DNA from: Antedon mediterranea
Lineage: Eukaryota; Echinodermata; Crinoidea; Comatulida; Antedonidae
Reading direction: 5' to 3'
Length of the DNA: 64,000 nt
Assembly (NCBI RefSeq): GCF_964355755.1
Contig: NC_092674.1
Coordinates: 2,237,001-2,301,000, forward strand
Position 1 is the first letter of the stretch, and every line of letters begins with the position of its first letter. Position numbers and translations under genes: made by a program. This document shows positions 28,401 to 59,700 of this stretch, in pieces. A model generated the notes under the pieces. The model was not told the DNA's origin. It saw only the letters and a program-made list of their open reading frames with translations, and did no database searches.

Positions 28401-31400
28401 TACACAAAAATGTGTTTAATAATAGGGACACGCACTGACGTTATTTCATTTCATTTATTTCAAATATCGTCATCGCAGCCAAAGCTGAATTACAAAGATA
28501 TTTACATATATTATAATGAAGTAAAGTCTACCTACTGTTACTACTAATACATCTTAAGCTCTGTCTACACTATCAAACTAGTCCAAATATGGTATTGGTA
28601 TGCTTAAATATGGTAATGATATGACATCATCATGTCCATATATGGCACATTTTTTTGTAATATAAGTTTGATAGTGTAGACAGATCTTTAGATAAGTTGA
28701 TAGCGTACTGTAGAAAGAGTAAACATGGTTTTTCATGGTATTAGTAGTGGTCACATAGCCCGACGGGGGTCCACTTGCAAAACATGAAAATATATATAAC
28801 ACTACACTCAGGGTATATGTATTACCAAATTTTCATATTGATGCAGTGTTTTTTTATAGTAAAATTAATTAACTTGAGTTTCTGTTTTCACAATTTACAA
28901 TTATAATTTAGCTACTATAAATATTAATGAAGGATGAGGTGGTGTAATGTTATTCATTCCGTCGTCAAGTCACCTTGTTTGCTTGTAGCTTGCTAGGTGT
29001 GTTGGGGCGTGAGGTCACCTTGTTTTCTTGCTAGGTGTGTTGGGGCTTGTGGAGACCTTGTTTTCTTGCTAGGTGTGTTGGGGCGTGAGGTCACCTTGTT
29101 TTCTTGCTAGGTGTGTTGGGGCTTGTGGAGACCTTGTTTTCTTGCTAGGTGTGTTGGGGCTTGTGGAGACCTTGTTTGCTTGCTAGGTGTGTTGGGGCTT
29201 GTGGAGACCTTGTTTGCTTGCTAGGTGTGTTGGGGCTTGTGGAGACCTTGTTTGCTTGCTAGGTGTGTTGGGGCTTGTGGAGACCTTGTTTGCTTGCTAG
29301 GTGTGTTGGGGCTTGTGGAGACCTTGTTTGCTTGCTAGGTGTGTTGGGGCTTGTGGAGACCTTGTTTGCTTGCTAGGTGTGTTGGGGCTTGTGGAGACCT
29401 TGTTTGCTTGCTAGGTGTGTTGGGGCTTGTGGAGACCTTGTTTGCTTGCTAGGTGTGTTGGGGCTTGTGGAGACCTTGTTTTCTTGCTAGGTGTGTTGGG
29501 GCTTGTGGAGACCTTGTTTGCTTGCTAGGTGTGTTGGGGCTTGTGGAGACCTTGTTTGCTTGCTAGGTGTGTTGGGGCTTGTGGAAACCTTGTTTGCTTG
29601 CTAGGTGTGTTGGGGCTTGTGGAGACCTTGTTTGCTTGCTAGGTGTGTTGGGGCTTGTGGAGACCTTGTTTGCTTGCTAGGTGTGTTGGGGCTTGTGGAG
29701 ACCTTGTTTGCTTGCTAGGTGTGTTGGGGCTTGTGGAGACCTTGTTTGCTTGCTAGATTTGTTGGGGCTTGTGGAAACCTTGTTTGCTTGCTAGTTGTGT
29801 TGGAGCTTGTGGAGACCTTGTTTGCTTGCTAGGTGTGTTGGGGCTTGTGGAGACCTTGTTTGCTTGCTAGGTGTGTTGGGGCTTGTGGAGACCTTGTTTG
29901 CTTGCTAGGTGTGTTGGGGCTTGTGGAGACCTTGTTTGCTTGCTAGGTGTGTTGGAGCATGAGGAGGCAGATAATGTGTCCTTGTTAGTATTCACACAAC
30001 AGTAGACACACATCAGTCTTTATGATCAATTACAATAAACAAGTTGATCAATAAGTGTGATGATACAAAGTCATGTCTGTTGTCTATAAAAGAAACAAAT
30101 GGAGGTTATAAAGTCAATAACAATGTTATTAGTCGTTTTAATTTAGTAATTTTAATATATATTGTATGACCACAAATCATGTAACAGACAGACATGGAAG
30201 TCTATCACTCTGCTAATGAAAGTTTACGTTAATTAATTAATTGAAATATGTTTTCATTATACTTGATTATATAACTACTGTGAAGTGGCTATGTATGTGT
30301 TAGGGAGCAAGGAATTGATCAGAGGTTTTTGCCCTAAATTCATCCCTAGCCTGATGTGAATTGAAGAATTCAGAGGCAAAAATCCGAGTTCCCAGCGCAT
30401 CATTAGCCTATAATTCTCTAGTAACAAATGAAAATATATATATTGGTGATATAGCACACAAAAAAAGTGGGGGGGGGGGGGCCCGAACACATCTTAGCAA
30501 ATCTAGACATCTAGGTACAATTATGGTTTACAAACTTGTAGTAATTATAAAGTTGCTTTGATGATTTGTCAGATGTCAAATACCCCTTTCATTTAGCCCA
30601 GTAACACTGTGTTTTGTATGGTGTGCGTTTGGATGTTTAAACTTTGGAGTTTTGCTAGGCAATGTAAATAAAGCATTAGTTAAAAAGTTGTAGTATTACT
30701 ATAAAGTTGTTTTTATGTAAAGCTCTGTCTACACTATCAAATTAGTTTGACAAAAAAGTGATGTGCCTATATATTGTAGTGATATGCTTAAAAATGGTAG
30801 TGATACCATGTCCATATGTCCATATATGAGCACATCACATTGTCACATAAAATTTGATAGTGTAGACAGAGATTAAGATATTTGAAATGGTTTTTTTCTG
30901 ATGCATCTTACTAGTACATATATACTGGCTGCTTGCAATGTAGATCAGATCTTCATCCCAAGCATTAATACATTTTCATGGATGTTTCAAACAGCACTGA
31001 ATTTTCTGACGCAAACCTAGTCTGATATGCCTGCATTTGGTGATGAATGTTAATGCTGCTACTTTTGAATTTTATTACTTTTGTCATTAAATTGATTTTG
31101 ATAGCATGTGTATGAAACAAATGGTGAACTGTTATTTTAATTGTAAAAAAAAAAATTGTAAAAATGTAATTTCTTGCGACTGCTTTCTTAGGTTACAACA
31201 TGATGGGTTACTCACAAGATAATAAGATTGTTCAATTTGTAAACTAATGTCATATAAGACATTTTCACTGTGTTTTGATAACCTCTCAACGTTGCTGTTG
31301 TTATAACAAGCTGTCTGTTTCCACACACACATATGCTGTATTCTGATTTATTAAGATATTTTCAAATTGTTTAATGCCCTCCTTAGCTGCTTAGCAAACT

Positions 31401-36674: not shown

Positions 36675-37130
36675 AGTATACTGTAAGCGCCGTGCTATAC
36701 TGTAAGCGCCGTGCTATACTGTAAGCGCCGTGCTATACTGTAAGCGCCGTGCTATACTGTAAGCGCCGTGCTATACTGTAAGCGCCGTGCTATACTGTAA
36801 GCGTCGTGCTATACTGTAAGCGTCGTGCTATACTGTAAGCGCCGTGCTATACTGTAAGCGCCGTGCTATACTGTAAGCGCCGTCCTACACTGTAAGCGCC
36901 GTGCTATATTGTAAGCGCCGTGCTATATTGTAAGCACCGTGCTATACTGTAAGCGCCGTGCTATACTGTAAGCGCCGTGCTATACTGTAAGCGCCGTCCT
37001 ACACTGTAAGCGCCGTGCTATACTGTAAGCGCCGTGCTATACTGTAAGCGCCGTGCTACACTGTAAGCGCCGTCCTACACTGTAAGCGCCGTGCTATATT
37101 GTATGCACCGTAAATATTGTAAGCACCATG
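36675..37130 (+). repeat. 19-bp minisatellite, about 23 units
   Basis: The unit is GTGCTATACTGTAAGCGCC. Homogeneous in the first half, more varied after 36885 (GTCCTACACTG, GTGCTATATTG). Degenerate CTGTAAGCAC words continue to about 37310. Confidence 0.95.
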
Positions 37131-50700: not shown

Positions 50701-53700
50701 CTTTTATTTATAAATAAAATACTTTATTATTATAAATAATTGAATATAAAAATAGTGCAGGTATTTCTGAAAAAAATCCGAAAATGGTTAAAACTAACTT
50801 CAGTATAAAGATTGGTTGATAAGTACCGTACTTTAGCCTGTAAATATTGTTTATTTGGTTTTGTTGTTCGCTAGTTAAAGGAAGATTAGGCCGCAGCTTT
50901 TTCTAGAATGCCGGTGTATACTGTAGTAAATAGCTTCACTTGAATTGTCCAAATTGTATTCAATCAGGAACAGCGTGTATTGTTTGACCAGGCTGTAGAA
51001 TTAGGTGAAGCAAGCAAACACAAAAGCTGATAAGTAGATCGTTGGATGAATTACTATTGCCTTCATGAATAGGATTACAAATACCTGAATTTACCTATCA
51101 ATTGGGTCAAAGGTTAACAGGTCACTAGGAGTAGGTTGACCCTCGTGAGGTGGTGGGTGAAATTACTAGTTTTACAGCTAAGTGCTTTTTACTAGCACCA
51201 CCAGTGGATCATGAAGTTTTGGTATTTTTGTCTGAAAACGGTTTCCCAAATTGTTTACTGTATCTGCTGTAGAACCATGACTAAATGCACTTTGGAATTG
51301 GAATATAAATAATTTTAGCCTTTGGTTTGGCTAGGTTTTTCCCAGTGTCGTTTTTTATTCATGCTAAAATAAAATGTATCCAACATACTGTATACACAGT
51401 GCATTTGCACAAATTGAGTAAAATTGTATGTTTGTTGAGAATCTAAATAGTTAGAATCTCACAATTTATATTTAGTTGGCCTCACCAAGATTTTATTTAT
51501 AATTTAGTTATACTGTATAAGCACATTTTCAATTAATTTTTATAACAATAATACTATGATTACAAACATACAGGTATAGTACAATAGTTCAGTACAGGTT
51601 TTAGGTGTTTATTTAAATTTGTAATTCATATAGTAGACGTTGTCCTTTCATTCATAAAATTATTGTATGTGGATGGTTACCGTGACGACAAGTATGCTGT
51701 CATAGTATTGACTTTAGCTGTGGTATTCTTATTCTTCAAGGATTTCTATTTGATATTTTGCGAAATTAATCAATGTTGATTATGAAGTCCATGTTTACAC
51801 AGGTTGTCATTTTAACAAGTAAAGTTTGGGTGTCAAATTACAATTTTGTCCAATTAATAATTGCTCAAGAAGGTATTAAAATTTGATGTTGTCATCTTAT
51901 TACACTTCCACCCATCAGTCACAAATTTCAGTCAAGTTGCAGTCATCAGTAATTAACAAATCTTATTTGCAAATATTAGTTGGATTATTACTACAAAAAA
52001 AATTATTTGATCATTTTAGTTTTTGTAGTGGAATAATTTAGCAAACATCACTGTACTGCTGAGCTCATTACAAATTCCACACTACTTCAATCAAATCATG
52101 AAAATTACATTATGAAGTTGGTGGCATACTTGAATATTGACCAAAAGCAATTATTTAATGAACTGAACATTTAGTTACACAGTACATGAAGATTTGTTTT
52201 ATTAGAATGCTGCTATTGATTATTGAAAATCACATCTGTGGTGTCCCACCTGCTTTTATTTTCAATTTGTTATTTTAGTTACTAATTCAATCACAGAATA
52301 TTTTATCTATGATATGGGTTTGCTGAATTTATTGTAAATATGATGAAAAAAATAATTTTCAAATTAAAATATTAATATTCTTCTTCCTGTTGGTTTATTT
52401 TTGTATTCAAAAAATATATTTTAATTGAATATATTGTCATTTTGTCTCGCATATTAATACATTGGGTTGTTGTGTATAGTAAATCGTAAGTTTTATGCTT
52501 AGTAATTATTATAGTACATTTCTATACCTCCATGATCTACTGTTGTATTTGATTATAAGGCTTTCTTTAGTTGGCATCTCATTAATTATATCAAATGAAT
52601 ATTCATAGGCTTTCTTAGTATACGCCAATTGGCATCTCATTAATTATATCAAATGAATATGTATAGGCTTTCTTTAGTACACACTAATTGGCATCTCATT
52701 AATGATATCAAATGAATATTCATAGGCTTTCTTAGTACACACTAATTGGCATCTCATTAATGATATCAAATGAATATTCATAGGCTTTCTTAGTACACAC
52801 TAATTGGCATCTCATTAATGATATCAAATGAATATTCATAGGCTTTCTTAGTATACACCAATTGCCATCTCATTATTTCAAATGAATATACATGACTTGA
52901 TATTATCTCAAGCATATCTCAAGTTTCCTCAAAATGCTAATAATAATACATCAGGTAAAAATACTGTCAGATTTGCTTTACTCTGTTTACAACTATCATC
53001 TTGAGGATTAATAATAACCCAACACATTAGTGTGGTAGTTAAGCTGTTCTTAACGAGGAGTAGAATGTAGTTAGCGGTCGTCCACTTGTACAACAATGAA
53101 CAAGATCTACGACAATGACTCAACTAAATTTTATTGACAATTTCTCTCGTTAGCTCTTAGTTATTTCAGATCTTAGGATCTGTATAGAATTAAAGGAATC
53201 CAGTATTATTTCTTTTAAACTAGTGTATATAGTAAAATGTATATAAAAATAAACAAAGGATAAATTAAAAAGTTGAAACCAATAGCAAAAATCCGATTTT
53301 TTAGTTATTTTTGTTCCACGGTAATGGTGCTCCGCCATCTTGGAAAAAAACCAGGAAGCTACGATCGGTGGTGGGGCGGAAGTCCCTTCATCCGGGATCT
53401 TCGTATACTTTGTACACGTGCGAATATCACTGTAGTGTCAGTTGACTGTATTTGTCCAGCTAATTTTCACCGTAATTTCTCGCTTTTTTCCCGTTTCTTC
53501 AAAGTTTTGCGTTTTATAGTGTATGCTGATTTTTTATTTATTAATTTAAACGGTAGTAACCGTGTACGTCCAGCAAAAATTATGGTATTTTGTATGGCTT
53601 TCGGTTGCAGTAATGCATCAAGTAGGAAAGACAGGAAATCTACCAACAAAGTTAACGTCAGCTTTCATCGATTGCCTTTGCACAATAAAGATTTACTTCG

Positions 53701-56700
53701 TAAGTGGGTGGCATCTTTGAAGTTAGAGAATCCTCATGTAAATGTACATTCTCGAGTGTGTAGTGAACATTTTGAGAAAGATATGTTTGAAGACAATTCT
53801 GTGAAAGTGTCACTCGGTCGAAAACCAACAAGGCGATTAAAGCCGGACGCTGTACCAACACAGCTTGCTCATATCAAACCTGCCAGCGAAGCATCGAAAA
53901 GAAGACAAGATCGTCAAAAATTGATGGAACAAAAGCGATGGCCTAAAAAGGTAAGCTACGAAAATCTACAGCAAAATATAAATAATAATGCGCGGCTCTG
54001 TTGATAATTATAATTAAAATACTGTGTATTTATTAAACTATAAACAGGCTCTAGTTAGGCCTATAGATAGGCGAGAGGCCCTTCTCTTTCTTCTCCTCTA
54101 ACTAAACTAGGCGGCTAGCTGCTTTAGCCAGCACTGCCGTAGTAGGAGTAGGCCTAGACGGCTTGTGTATTCTGAGTTGATTGCCCTTAATTTTAAAGCT
54201 AGGCCTAGTGGTGTTAATTAGTTATGTTAAAAAATAACATCTTCCCACAAAACGAAATGAAAATATGTAGATATAAAATAAATTTCAACATTTTACTGTT
54301 TCATGAATGAAGTTGAGTTAAGGTGATAAAAATTACTCTTGGATCATCAGGTGCTACACTTGGCTTTTGTAACATCGAGTATTTTGTTCATGTCTTCATC
54401 AAGTCTAACATGCAGATTATGGTTAACTTATGCATTCATTTTCAGAAAGTTTTGGATATGGGCCAAGTGGAATTAGATGAAACATCAATACAAAGAGATT
54501 CGGTAGAAGTAATTCAGCCAGAGATTTTGTTTTCGGAAGGGTGTAAATGTGGACAAGTAACTAAGGTCAACTCATCAACACAAGTAAGTGTATACAAATA
54601 AGGCTCTTAATAAATAATGGAATGCAATGATTGTTACATATAGATGCTATTTTTTATCAAAATATTACAATTGTACATTCCAGACAGACACTTTCGCAGA
54701 TCCACTAAAGATCCAGCATGATCATAGTTATGTGAAGCTGTTTAAAAAAAAGCCCAAGTCTGTAGCCAAAACTCGCAAATGTCCATCGGCCTCAAGTACA
54801 GCCAGCATCCCACAAAACATACCACAAGTTCCAGAAGAAGAAGATTCAGAAGTAGATAATTCTGATAATGACAGTGATGAAGGTACTATTTATTCTTTTT
54901 ATGTTTACTATTTGTTCTGCAACTCAAAACTATGGGCACATTTACAATACATTTATTTGTTTATGACCAAGAAAGCTAAGATTTGAATGGTTTTTAAAAA
55001 AAAAGATGAGGTTTTTGTACTTGAAAATATCAAATAATTTTTTTCTATCTAACATGCCTTTTTCAGATGTTGATTCTGATAGCTCATATTCACCGAGCAG
55101 CTCTGATAGTGACTCTGAAACTAATACGGCTGAAAGAAAGAAGAGTGATGGAGTCTTCCTCGTCTATGAGTCGTCATTGGACCATCTTTTTAATACATGC
55201 CAAGAGTGTGGTAGTCTATTAGAAATACATAAACTGTACCGGGGAACAATGATTGTATTTGAATGGACATGTCACAACAATCACAGAGGAAGGTGGAAAT
55301 CACAACCACTTGTGCGAAACATGGCAAAGGGAAACCTTGAGTTAGCGGCATCGATTTTGTTTTCAGGTGGCACATACCAAAAAATGTTTGACATTGCAAC
55401 CACTATGAAACTACACATGCTTTCAGAAAAACATTTTTACAATATTCAGAGGTCTTACCTTTTCCCTGTAATAAATGATCTGTACAATGAAAACCATGGT
55501 ATATGGATAGATGCATTTCGCTACCAAGATATTTTCGTTGGTGGGGATGGGCGCAGTGACACGCCTGGCCATAGTGCTAAGTATTTGGGATATTCTCTGA
55601 TGGAGGAGAATAGTGAGCTCATTATTCATTTTGAGCTTGTCCAAGTATCGGAAGCGCCAGGCCAAGCTTCAACAAATATGGAGCGAGTCGGTTTCACAAG
55701 GGCAATTGACTACCTTCTAGAGGAAGATGTAAATGTCGTGGGAGTGACTACAGATAGACATGTCCAAATTGCAAGCGACATGAATAAGAACTACCCCGAA
55801 TTAAAACATGAGTTTGACATTTTTCATGTTGTTAAAAGCGTCACCAAGAAGCTTAGAGAAAAATCGAAGAAGAAAGGTTGCGAAGACCTTAGATTTTGGA
55901 TACCGTCCATAAAAAATCATCTGTGGTGGTGCTGTGCTTCCTGCAATGGCGATTATGCTGTAAGTTATATTAAAGCTGTTTTTTTATCACGATTTGTTTG
56001 TATATACTGTATTGAAGTACAGTATGTGTTGTACATTCTTATTGATTATTATGTTAACATTCATTTATGTTAATAGTTTTCATTTAATAGTTTATACTAT
56101 ATTTCACTTTTAGGACCTTAAGGACAAGTGGCTTTCTTTACTACAGCACGTCTGCAACATCCATGAATGGGCTAGTGCAGATAAATTCCACAAGTGCAGT
56201 CACGACCCACTATTGGAGGACATGCATGAAATTGAATGGCTGACACCAGGTAGCGATGCTCATGATGCACTTCGGGGTGTTGTTATGAACACTAAATTAC
56301 TAAAAGATATGCACAAGATGGCACTTTTTAAACACACAGGTATGTATGTAAAAAGATATATGAAATGTACTATTTTTGCTGTGGGATCATTCGAATAAAT
56401 TAAAGGCAAAAGAAGCCCTGCTATACTACATTCTTTAACATACAATAATAAACACTATAATATAACAATTTTTATAATAAAATTAATGCTTAACCTTCTT
56501 ACAGGATCGCTAGAGGTTTTTCATGGGATGTTGTTAAAATATTGTCCAAAGAGGGAACACTTCAGCTATGAAGGCATGAGAGCCCGTCATCAATTGGCAA
56601 TTATGGACCACAATGAGAATGTTGGTAGACAGCAAGCAACTACTGAGGAAGGTAAGTAGTTTTATAAAAGCTTCTTTAATTTGTTGATTAGTAATCTATA

Positions 56701-59700
56701 AAGACATATTTACAATGAGGAATAATTATGTGCATTTCCTAACAGGCACTCTTCGATTTGGACTGGCATTTCCCAAACGCAAGAAGCAGTGGGTATTGAA
56801 GAAAATTTATGTAGACAAAACCTTCGAATTTAGAAAGAGACTGATGGAAATGGTGTGTGACCGACGTGAAGATAGCGCTATAGTTCTAGGTCAACGTTAT
56901 GTAGACAGACCAGATCTTCCAACAAACATTGCTTCTTCTGAGAAACCAGAGAAAGAAGATGCGATTGAAGATTTTAGAACTAGGTTTCTGCTTTCATAGT
57001 GTGTTTACATTAAAACCAACAAAGCTAATTTATGCTTATTTTGTTTTGTAAAAAAATCTTTTTAAACTGCTAAAGATGAAACCTTACATATTATATTACT
57101 ATAAAAACAATTTCTTAAATATTTTCTTGATGCAATTATTAGTGTATAGTTTTTGGTTGAATTAATAAAAAAAAGGCATTGAAGGAAATTCTCTGAAAAT
57201 AGTGAATAAACTAATTTTACCGATGCAAAAATGTTTATTATAATAATTATTGTGTTGTTGTGCAATTGCTGTAAGATGACGCTCAGTAACTTTCTGCAAA
57301 ATACGTCTAATTATATTCGCGAATTATATTTCACATATTTGGCCGGCCAGATGATAAATAACTACATTTTGATTGGATTTGATTCTTCCCTGTTTTGGAA
57401 CAGCTTTTAATACAATGCTTGCATACAAATAATAAACAGAAAACACTTGTTACTGTTTGTTGCTTTTAATTTTTATTTACATACCCTTGTTAAGTGAATT
57501 AAAATAAATCGCCCTTCTTTCTTGTTACAGTATATTAATAATGTCTATTACAAAATTTATAATCAAGGAAATGGCTTTTATTTAGCCTAACTAGGTAGGC
57601 ATAGCCTAGCTATAAAAAATGTTACTATTTGATGCATTCGATAATTAAATGTTATGAATTAACATCTTGATACCATTCGATTTATTCGACTTCTTTAAAT
57701 CCAACATAATTTCCATCAATGCTAGGAAAGTCCTTTCTGATTTTGTTTACGACGCAGGCTGGGATGACTCGTCGTACGGCTTTACCAAGGCGGTCATGCA
57801 CCCAGTAGGTGAACTGCCTGTACGCCTGAAGGCGAAATGTTTCGTTCGGGATCGGGTCAACGATGCTGTCTCGCCTAATGTCTGTCCGGGCAACAAGTGC
57901 AGTTCTAATTACTGCAGGATGTAAACATACAAATTCGAATTCAAAATGGTCTAAAATGCATGCCATTTCGTTTTCTGATCCTATGTTCATCTTCGCTCGT
58001 ACATTTTCAATTTCCCGACAACAAAGGCATTCCACAGCAGTGTCCATCAATTCACACCGTCCGCATTGGCACCATTCCTCCTTGTTTACTTTCCTCCATT
58101 CTATATCTTCTCCTTCATGTGCGACAATATTATCTAAACCTTCTATTTCCTCCACATCTCTTCTTCTTCTTCTTCTTCTTCTGGGTTCTAATTGGTAAGG
58201 TTGTAATCCGTGATTCATCTTAATTTAGCTCTGTGTATATATAGGCATCCACGCTCTACGGGCAGTCTCACAGTTGGATGATTTTCTCTGTCAAACCAAT
58301 GACGTCACAACCTCGTTTTCGTGTTAAACATGGCGGCTCATAGAGAATCCGCGGTTTTTTTGAAAAATCTACACTTCAAAATCGATTTTACTCTAAACAA
58401 CAATAAATTTCAAAAAAATTTTACCGCACTTCGTTTTATATGAATTATATCTACAATGCTACACATTTTAAAAGAAATAATACTGCATTCCTTTAAATAG
58501 ACAGTGGTACTGTACGCATTTGAATCTATGCTATTGAACTGTATTACCCTCCATTATATGTAGATATTATTAAAATTAAATGAAGACCTTTGCTGTTTTA
58601 TTATTGTTAACTGAACATTCTACTGAATCTTGTATGAAATAAGATATACAGTGGTACTGTACACTTTTGAATACACGCACAATGCAATTGAACCATAGCG
58701 CCCTCCTCTACATTATATGTGACATTATTTATTAAATGGCGACCTTGGCTGTTTTATTATTATTGTGTACTGAACATTCTACTGAAAGCACTATTGGTAA
58801 ATCCTGAAAGTACTGTGGTGTGGGAAAAAAATGCCTATATTCTATAGTGTTTGGAGGATAACACTAAGCTTTTACTATTCTAATGGACCTTTAAATTCCA
58901 TCAAATCAATTTACTTGAGATAGATATTAAGATGGTGGGGTCTGATGCTATCAGTTTAATACTGTATATAACTTGTATGACATAAGCATTTATGAAGTCG
59001 AGATAATTGCATGGCTTTCTGTTGACGAATCCCATTCATAATTAATTTACCTTGAAATTGGCCATTTTGAGTCATTTGCCATTGAATGTCATCAATGTAC
59101 ACGTATATTACATTAAATATGTTGTAATATTTACTCTTTAAATGTCACTCTTAAGAATGTTATGAATGTTTATTTAATGGAAAGTACTGACACTGACAGT
59201 GGTTGTTGCACATTTTTTGACAGGAAAATTACATTAGAAATCTTAGAAAATTTGGATAAATAATTATTTCATGATTTGCTTAATGCTTTTAAAGCTGAAA
59301 AGAATATTTTGAACAGACAACAGTAAACAAGAAAAGATATGATAAGTTTGTTTACTTATATTTATTATTAAACCCAAAAGGTAAATTCACTATCAGTGAC
59401 TGAAGCTAAGCTTTCGGGAAAATTACTATTTCTTTATGAATCGAGGCAAATGTTTTGATCTACCAACTGGGATGCCTGTAAAATGTTGGGTCAGTACAAC
59501 ATGTAAGCTAAAATTAATGATGCTGAAGGTGTAGCCTAGAGTAATCACTTCAACACTCTTAATTGGTGCTTTGATTGACTTGTATTGTTTAGTGTACAAC
59601 ATGCACTTTGTTGCCATAAAGTAATCATTTCCTGGGGCGGATCCAGACATTTTTGAGAGGGGGGGTCCGCCGATAAAAAGGGCACATCAGATATTGAGTA

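Follow-up and report, generated by a model that had tools for sequence, protein, structure and literature searches.

Kolobok DNA transposons of the Kol0 group encode a second protein, KolX, in addition to their transposase (Kojima and Bao 2022, PMC9587614). As described in that paper, KolX matches residues 476-595 of the receptor P2X7, including seven cysteines, and has the fold of the P2X7 cytoplasmic ballast; P2X7 itself came about when a P2X4-like gene fused with KolX. In the literature on the P2X7 ballast or KolX together with transposons, as far as its text was accessible, the pairing appears in that paper alone. We analyzed a 64,000-nucleotide stretch of the crinoid Antedon mediterranea (contig NC_092674.1, positions 2,237,001 to 2,301,000; the window), which carries an element that is very probably an intact, recently mobile two-gene Kolobok transposon of this KolX-bearing (Kol0) kind. 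We base the identification on the TTAA sites and terminal inverted repeats (TIRs), five copies in different flanks, open frames, THAP and P2RX7_C domains and aligned DDE residues, and also on consistently convergent gene pairs across the genome, constraint on KolX, its co-divergence with the transposase, and the published description of transposase plus KolX. That description overturns the belief of the first-pass annotation of this DNA that the pairing had not been reported. The window element adds to an already described kind, seen here in several families of one genome.

The element has the TTAA target, 5'-RR termini, D-x-x-H DDE motif and THAP domain of Kolobok transposons, and the KolX gene that marks Kol0. 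The type element of the Kol0 lineage, Kolobok-1_XT, is alike in the target, the termini, the DDE motif and a KolX with ballast similarity, and we found no essential difference among the tested features; the main text of PMC9587614 does not contain the words "THAP," "convergent," or "opposite." The Xenopus XKol elements share the TTAA target, AG termini, and a transposase with THAP, DDE and H2CH parts, and a term search of the main text of PMC6004289 returned no mention of KolX.

The inner 26 bases at the two element ends are inverted repeats with one mismatch and start with AG directly inside the TTAA, giving termini of the form 5'-RR ... YY-3'. Using either element end as a query against the whole host genome (354 Mb in 18 contigs), we found four more copies, whose matches begin at base 53190 and run to base 58496 or one base past it. 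TTAA is present at both ends in all five copies, and the flanks differ in all four of the others. Three of these are 5307 bp long and one is 5313 bp, with a 6-bp insertion in exon 1. Aligned with the window copy, each shows 8 to 14 differences; eight substitutions are common to all four, which differ little among themselves, and the window copy is therefore the odd one out. We read these near-identical copies with the same ends in different flanks as a sign that the window element moved recently. The TTAA sites and 26-bp TIRs reported by the first-pass annotation are thus borne out by four further copies with exactly the same ends, and the genome search that it had proposed placed both genes inside the same ends in 5 of 5 copies.

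The transposase was modeled by enumerating GT-AG introns, which left 24 open combinations of sites, differing at small alternative sites. We used the 741-residue form for Pfam and PDB searches and the first form, of 738 residues, for comparisons between loci and families. The THAP domain matches Pfam PF05485 (E 2.3e-16), and a phmmer search of the PDB up to E 1 returned matches only to THAP domains (THAP1 and THAP2 chains). Its motifs GGDGR, TTDRH, DIFH and SLEVFH align with those of other families of this genome; the first D, the second D and D-x-x-H are kept in all eight families with an aligned core. The catalytic E is present in seven of the eight, the column being missing in family E, and in a ninth family, A2, the DDE motif columns are missing from the alignment. 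In the five copies of the window element, the core exon is 100% identical and free of stops. Another TTAA user, piggyBac, also deserves mention, as a few piggyBac families bear a KolX-like C-terminal part (PMC9587614, in the text available); the AG termini as in Kolobok, the THAP domain, the D-x-x-H motif and the full Cys set make the chance that this element is a piggyBac negligible, and we rejected that identity after finding no piggyBac Pfam match up to E 1.

The second gene, KolX, matches Pfam PF20478 (P2RX7_C; E 2e-18), and the nearest solved chains in the PDB are those of P2X7 (best E 1.5e-5). All five copies encode the same KolX protein, at 100% identity and with no break in the frame. 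The two genes were first annotated as full open frames facing each other: they are convergent and KolX is unbroken, and the transposase is a seven-exon model rather than one open frame. KolX resembles the P2X7 ballast, or ZCD domain, and nanor (PMC7016195, as accessible) in its Cys motifs, R546, Y550, W, PxC, IRxxFP and YxGF (residues in P2X7 numbering throughout), but is a stand-alone transposon protein. The seven zinc-binding Cys (CxCxxC, CC, C, PxC) align with P2X7 in families A (the window element), B and C, the three aligned over the whole domain. A run of eight Arg lies near the N terminus of the window copy. A basic run occurs there in an unbroken frame in families A, A2 and G, and with a stop in between in family H; among the 11 families compared, the N-terminal part was not found outside these four. 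This run is a possible nuclear signal, judging by its composition. As a single query against viral contigs, window KolX gave five pattern matches and no relative.

Table 1. Features of the KolX-bearing Kolobok element, in window coordinates
Feature	Position	Strand	Basis
Whole element	53190-58496		
TTAA target sites	53190-53193; 58493-58496		
Left end: TTAA and 26-bp TIR beginning AG (5'-RR)	53190-53219	+	Boundary common to five copies with differing flanks
Right end: 26-bp TIR and TTAA	58467-58496	-	Inverted-repeat comparison; boundary common to five copies
THAP-DDE transposase gene (predicted, 7 exons, 741 amino acids)	53582-56999	+	Splice enumeration; Pfam THAP; motifs aligned across families
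Predicted transposase exons	53582-53950, 54446-54583, 54684-54882, 55067-55959, 56114-56339, 56505-56651, 56746-56999	+	
Transposase exon 1, THAP DNA-binding domain	53582-53950	+	Pfam THAP at residues 4-93; THAP1 PDB chains, best E 8.6e-8
Transposase exon 4, DDE core	55067-55959	+	Motifs GGDGR (first D), TTDRH (second D) and DIFH (D-x-x-H)
KolX gene, intronless (protein of 178 amino acids with the P2X7 cytoplasmic-ballast domain)	57682-58218	-	PF20478; P2X7 PDB chains

The pairing of the two genes extends well beyond the window element. Combined searches with window KolX (73 rows) and the Pfam model (56 rows) gave 71 ballast-like loci, and the transposase core exon marks 63 loci. A transposase locus lies within 6 kb of 34 of the 71, where uniform placement would expect about 0.15, and all 34 close pairs are convergent. 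In our own grouping into families, KolX has the same orientation in eight families with a transposase core (A, B, C, E, G, H, I and K) and in three with remnants (A2, D and F). Together with the five copies, these pairs support the initial proposal that the ballast protein is the second gene of a mobile element.

Several observations weigh against the identification or its generality. The Kol0 assignment was made by the ballast similarity of KolX and not by a transposase tree, Pfam DDE matches of the transposase (MULE, ISL3) fell below the cut-off, and a single-sequence AlphaFold model of window KolX had a mean pLDDT (predicted local distance difference test) of 37.7 and was not used for a fold search. 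No transposase match lies within 6 kb of 37 of the 71 ballast-like loci. Sixteen of these sit in family D copies, by coordinates, with 3 of the 16 read. Nine further loci were read: four contain transposase pieces facing the ballast gene (L006, L010, L027 and L028), two a weak THAP piece in the same arrangement (L017, E 2e-5, and L018, E 0.001), and in two decayed relatives of the window family (L008 and L009) no transposase was found. At L011, the sole transposase piece is B-like, about 3.5 kb away and on the same strand as KolX, and so not convergent. The other 12 of the 37 were left out of the locus reading. Conversely, 29 of the 63 transposase loci have no ballast match within 6 kb; re-reading five of them recovered a convergent KolX in three (L031 and L032, which are one family, and L034), and none was found at L030 and L033. 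KolX may therefore be dispensable or lost in some elements.

We scanned 25 loci (L005 to L029) for TTAA-anchored inverted pairs under a low-complexity filter and obtained 11 pairs; a control in which the bases of these loci were simply shuffled, scanned without that filter, gave 3. One pair each was found in loci of families B (L012 and L025), D (L014, L015 and L016) and H (L021 and L022). The two pairs at each family C locus (L013 and L026) belong to an inverted repeat inside the element rather than to its ends. This repeat spans 2 kb and includes part of the transposase copied in inverted orientation (L013 1763-3787; L026 3155-5179). The scan returned no pairs in L005 to L011, L017 to L020, L023, L024, or L027 to L029. 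For families E, F, G, I and K, status as transposons therefore derives from paired genes and repeated copies and not from TIRs. In family G, the match between the two copies compared ends on its right side at a TTAA.

Family D, bounded by TTAA and strong TIRs, is 3.14 kb long and has 14 near-full-length copies (L014 2578-5717 and 13 others). Its ballast region has two stop codons within the match in all 13 copies listed, where family C reads through. The three copies read contain a remnant of the transposase C terminus (32% identity over 77 amino acids, E 8e-8) facing the ballast region. Compared with family C, which has both genes, family D is 91-92% alike at the left end and 79-83% in the right part. 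We read it as a putative non-autonomous derivative, mobilized by a related transposase. By spreading a broken ballast frame, family D accounts for many "P2X7-like" matches. The suggestion that mobile elements explain the abundance of such proteins holds, in this genome, for many such open reading frames.

To gauge constraint on KolX, we compared the proportions of synonymous (pS) and nonsynonymous (pN) differences. Between family A and L011, which is itself in two broken pieces, pS was 0.70 and pN 0.24 (127 codons); the values were 0.79 and 0.34 for B versus C, and 0.85 and 0.18 for C versus D. Between family A and its decayed copy L008, they were 0.087 and 0.081 (105 codons). Synonymous changes are near saturation between families, and we therefore limit the claim to pN lying below pS. 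On these codon comparisons, KolX is apparently under constraint between families. This constraint, and an orientation kept across families with a core and with remnants alike, argue against the ballast gene being a captured host gene that rides as a passenger with no role in transposition. Among the loci read we saw no non-mobile donor gene, though no search was aimed at one. Transposase loci without a detectable KolX would fit a passenger, as would the multiplication of family D copies despite a broken KolX frame; family D has lost most of its transposase and would therefore need supply in trans. Overall, we regard a passenger as very unlikely.

Pairwise distances of KolX (about 50 residues) and of the transposase correlate over eight families (Mantel r 0.55, p 0.0044, all permutations), suggesting that KolX and its transposase have generally moved together. 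Such co-divergence fits a physical partner, though plain co-inheritance as well, and to that extent weighs against a host-directed role for KolX, such as regulating transcription or countering silencing of the element. The separate KolX gene near its own element end (278 bp from the right end to the ATG) would suit a host-directed role, and PMC9587614, as far as available, interprets the zebrafish embryonic gene nanor as a domesticated KolX. We consider action on the host possible, if doubtful.

We compared the C-terminal half of KolX in 11 families (A, A2, B, C, D, E, F, G, H, I and K; one sequence each). All 11 keep R546, Y550, R551, W556, P570, C572, I577, R578, G590 and F591. All 11 also have Arg at position 566, where the P2X7 chain has F566; we did not find this position discussed in the accessible text of PMC7016195. 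The guanosine diphosphate (GDP) site of P2X7 comprises R546, H547, R574, R578 and K583 (Rump et al. 2020, PMC7016195), and only R546 and R578 are reported there, in the text available, to be conserved beyond deuterostomes, the other three being mostly absent from the ballasts of non-vertebrates. Window KolX has just these two. None of the 11 families has R574 (V or M in KolX) or K583 (S, P, D, A or E), and H547 is present in 6 of 11. Of the nucleotide- or zinc-dependent partner proposed for the transposase at first pass, zinc dependence is plausible from the aligned Cys, and nucleotide dependence finds little backing in these residues.

The same residues bear on a specific version of that proposal, in which KolX would be a guanine-nucleotide-dependent switch of the transposase. 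The P2X7 ballast binds GDP or guanosine triphosphate (GTP) (PMC9248971, seen in part), and the P element transposase, which like THAP9 and the window transposase combines a THAP domain with an RNase H DDE core, requires GTP (PMC7776569, seen in part). In the P element, the guanine nucleotide domain is inserted within the transposase, whereas KolX is a separate protein and would be its counterpart in trans. The conservation of R546, R578 and the invariant Arg at 566 is consistent with a switch. The GTP parallel is attractive, but the absence of R574 and K583, and of H547 in 5 of the 11 families, speaks against a P2X7-like site in KolX as compared here, and we consider a switch unlikely.

We tentatively favor, at somewhat less than even chances, KolX as an accessory subunit of the transpososome. 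By analogy with its family, the THAP domain would bind DNA near the element ends, and the DDE core would excise the element and insert it at TTAA. The KolX gene runs inward from the opposite end, facing the transposase; its product is probably zinc-stabilized, basic and nuclear, and the conserved arginine cluster of KolX would hold DNA or a nucleotide within the transposition complex. This setting can be likened to maize MuDR, in which mudrA is convergent with mudrB, a second protein of unknown function (PMC3440606, as accessible). mudrB is reported to be confined to Zea (PMC3276141, as accessible), and the likeness is one of layout.

Apart from these families, L030 (G000 C5:15231005, 15238014, 15245012) is a tandem series of three units spaced at about 7 kb. 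All three carry an open Kolobok core of 302-304 amino acids; the unit read also has a THAP match, and KolX was not found in it. These units are a possible domesticated or amplified transposase. Elsewhere in the window, a 21-bp unit (GTGATATGCCCAAATATGGTA) occurs singly or in mini-arrays between 729 and 48600; with as many as 3 mismatches allowed, its 24 matches on the two strands group into 13 clusters, counted without a chance control. Tandem arrays lie at 28988-29966 (38-bp unit, 25.8 copies, 96% matches) and 36677-37111 (19-bp unit, 22.9 copies, 94% matches).

Against the accessible text of the sources cited, the Arg at 566, the absence of R574 and K583, the KolX-transposase distance correlation, and family D may be new details. 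The value of the locus lies in its material, a young element with five near-identical copies beside seven diverged families that have a transposase core and a convergent KolX. With both in one genome, the role of KolX in transposition becomes testable, and that role bears on the function of the P2X7 ballast prior to its fusion with the receptor. The residue comparison predicts that Arg 546, 551, 566 and 578 matter in KolX and that two residues of the rat GDP site, R574 and K583, were added later. We also raise, as an improbable extension, that KolX may be a subunit of the Kolobok transpososome gated by a nucleotide or nucleic acid, and that the cytoplasmic guanine-nucleotide site of P2X7 may be a reworked transposition site, which on capture would have given up the invariant Arg at 566 and acquired R574 and K583. 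If so, the unexplained GDP in the P2X7 ion channel would be a relic of a transposon cofactor.

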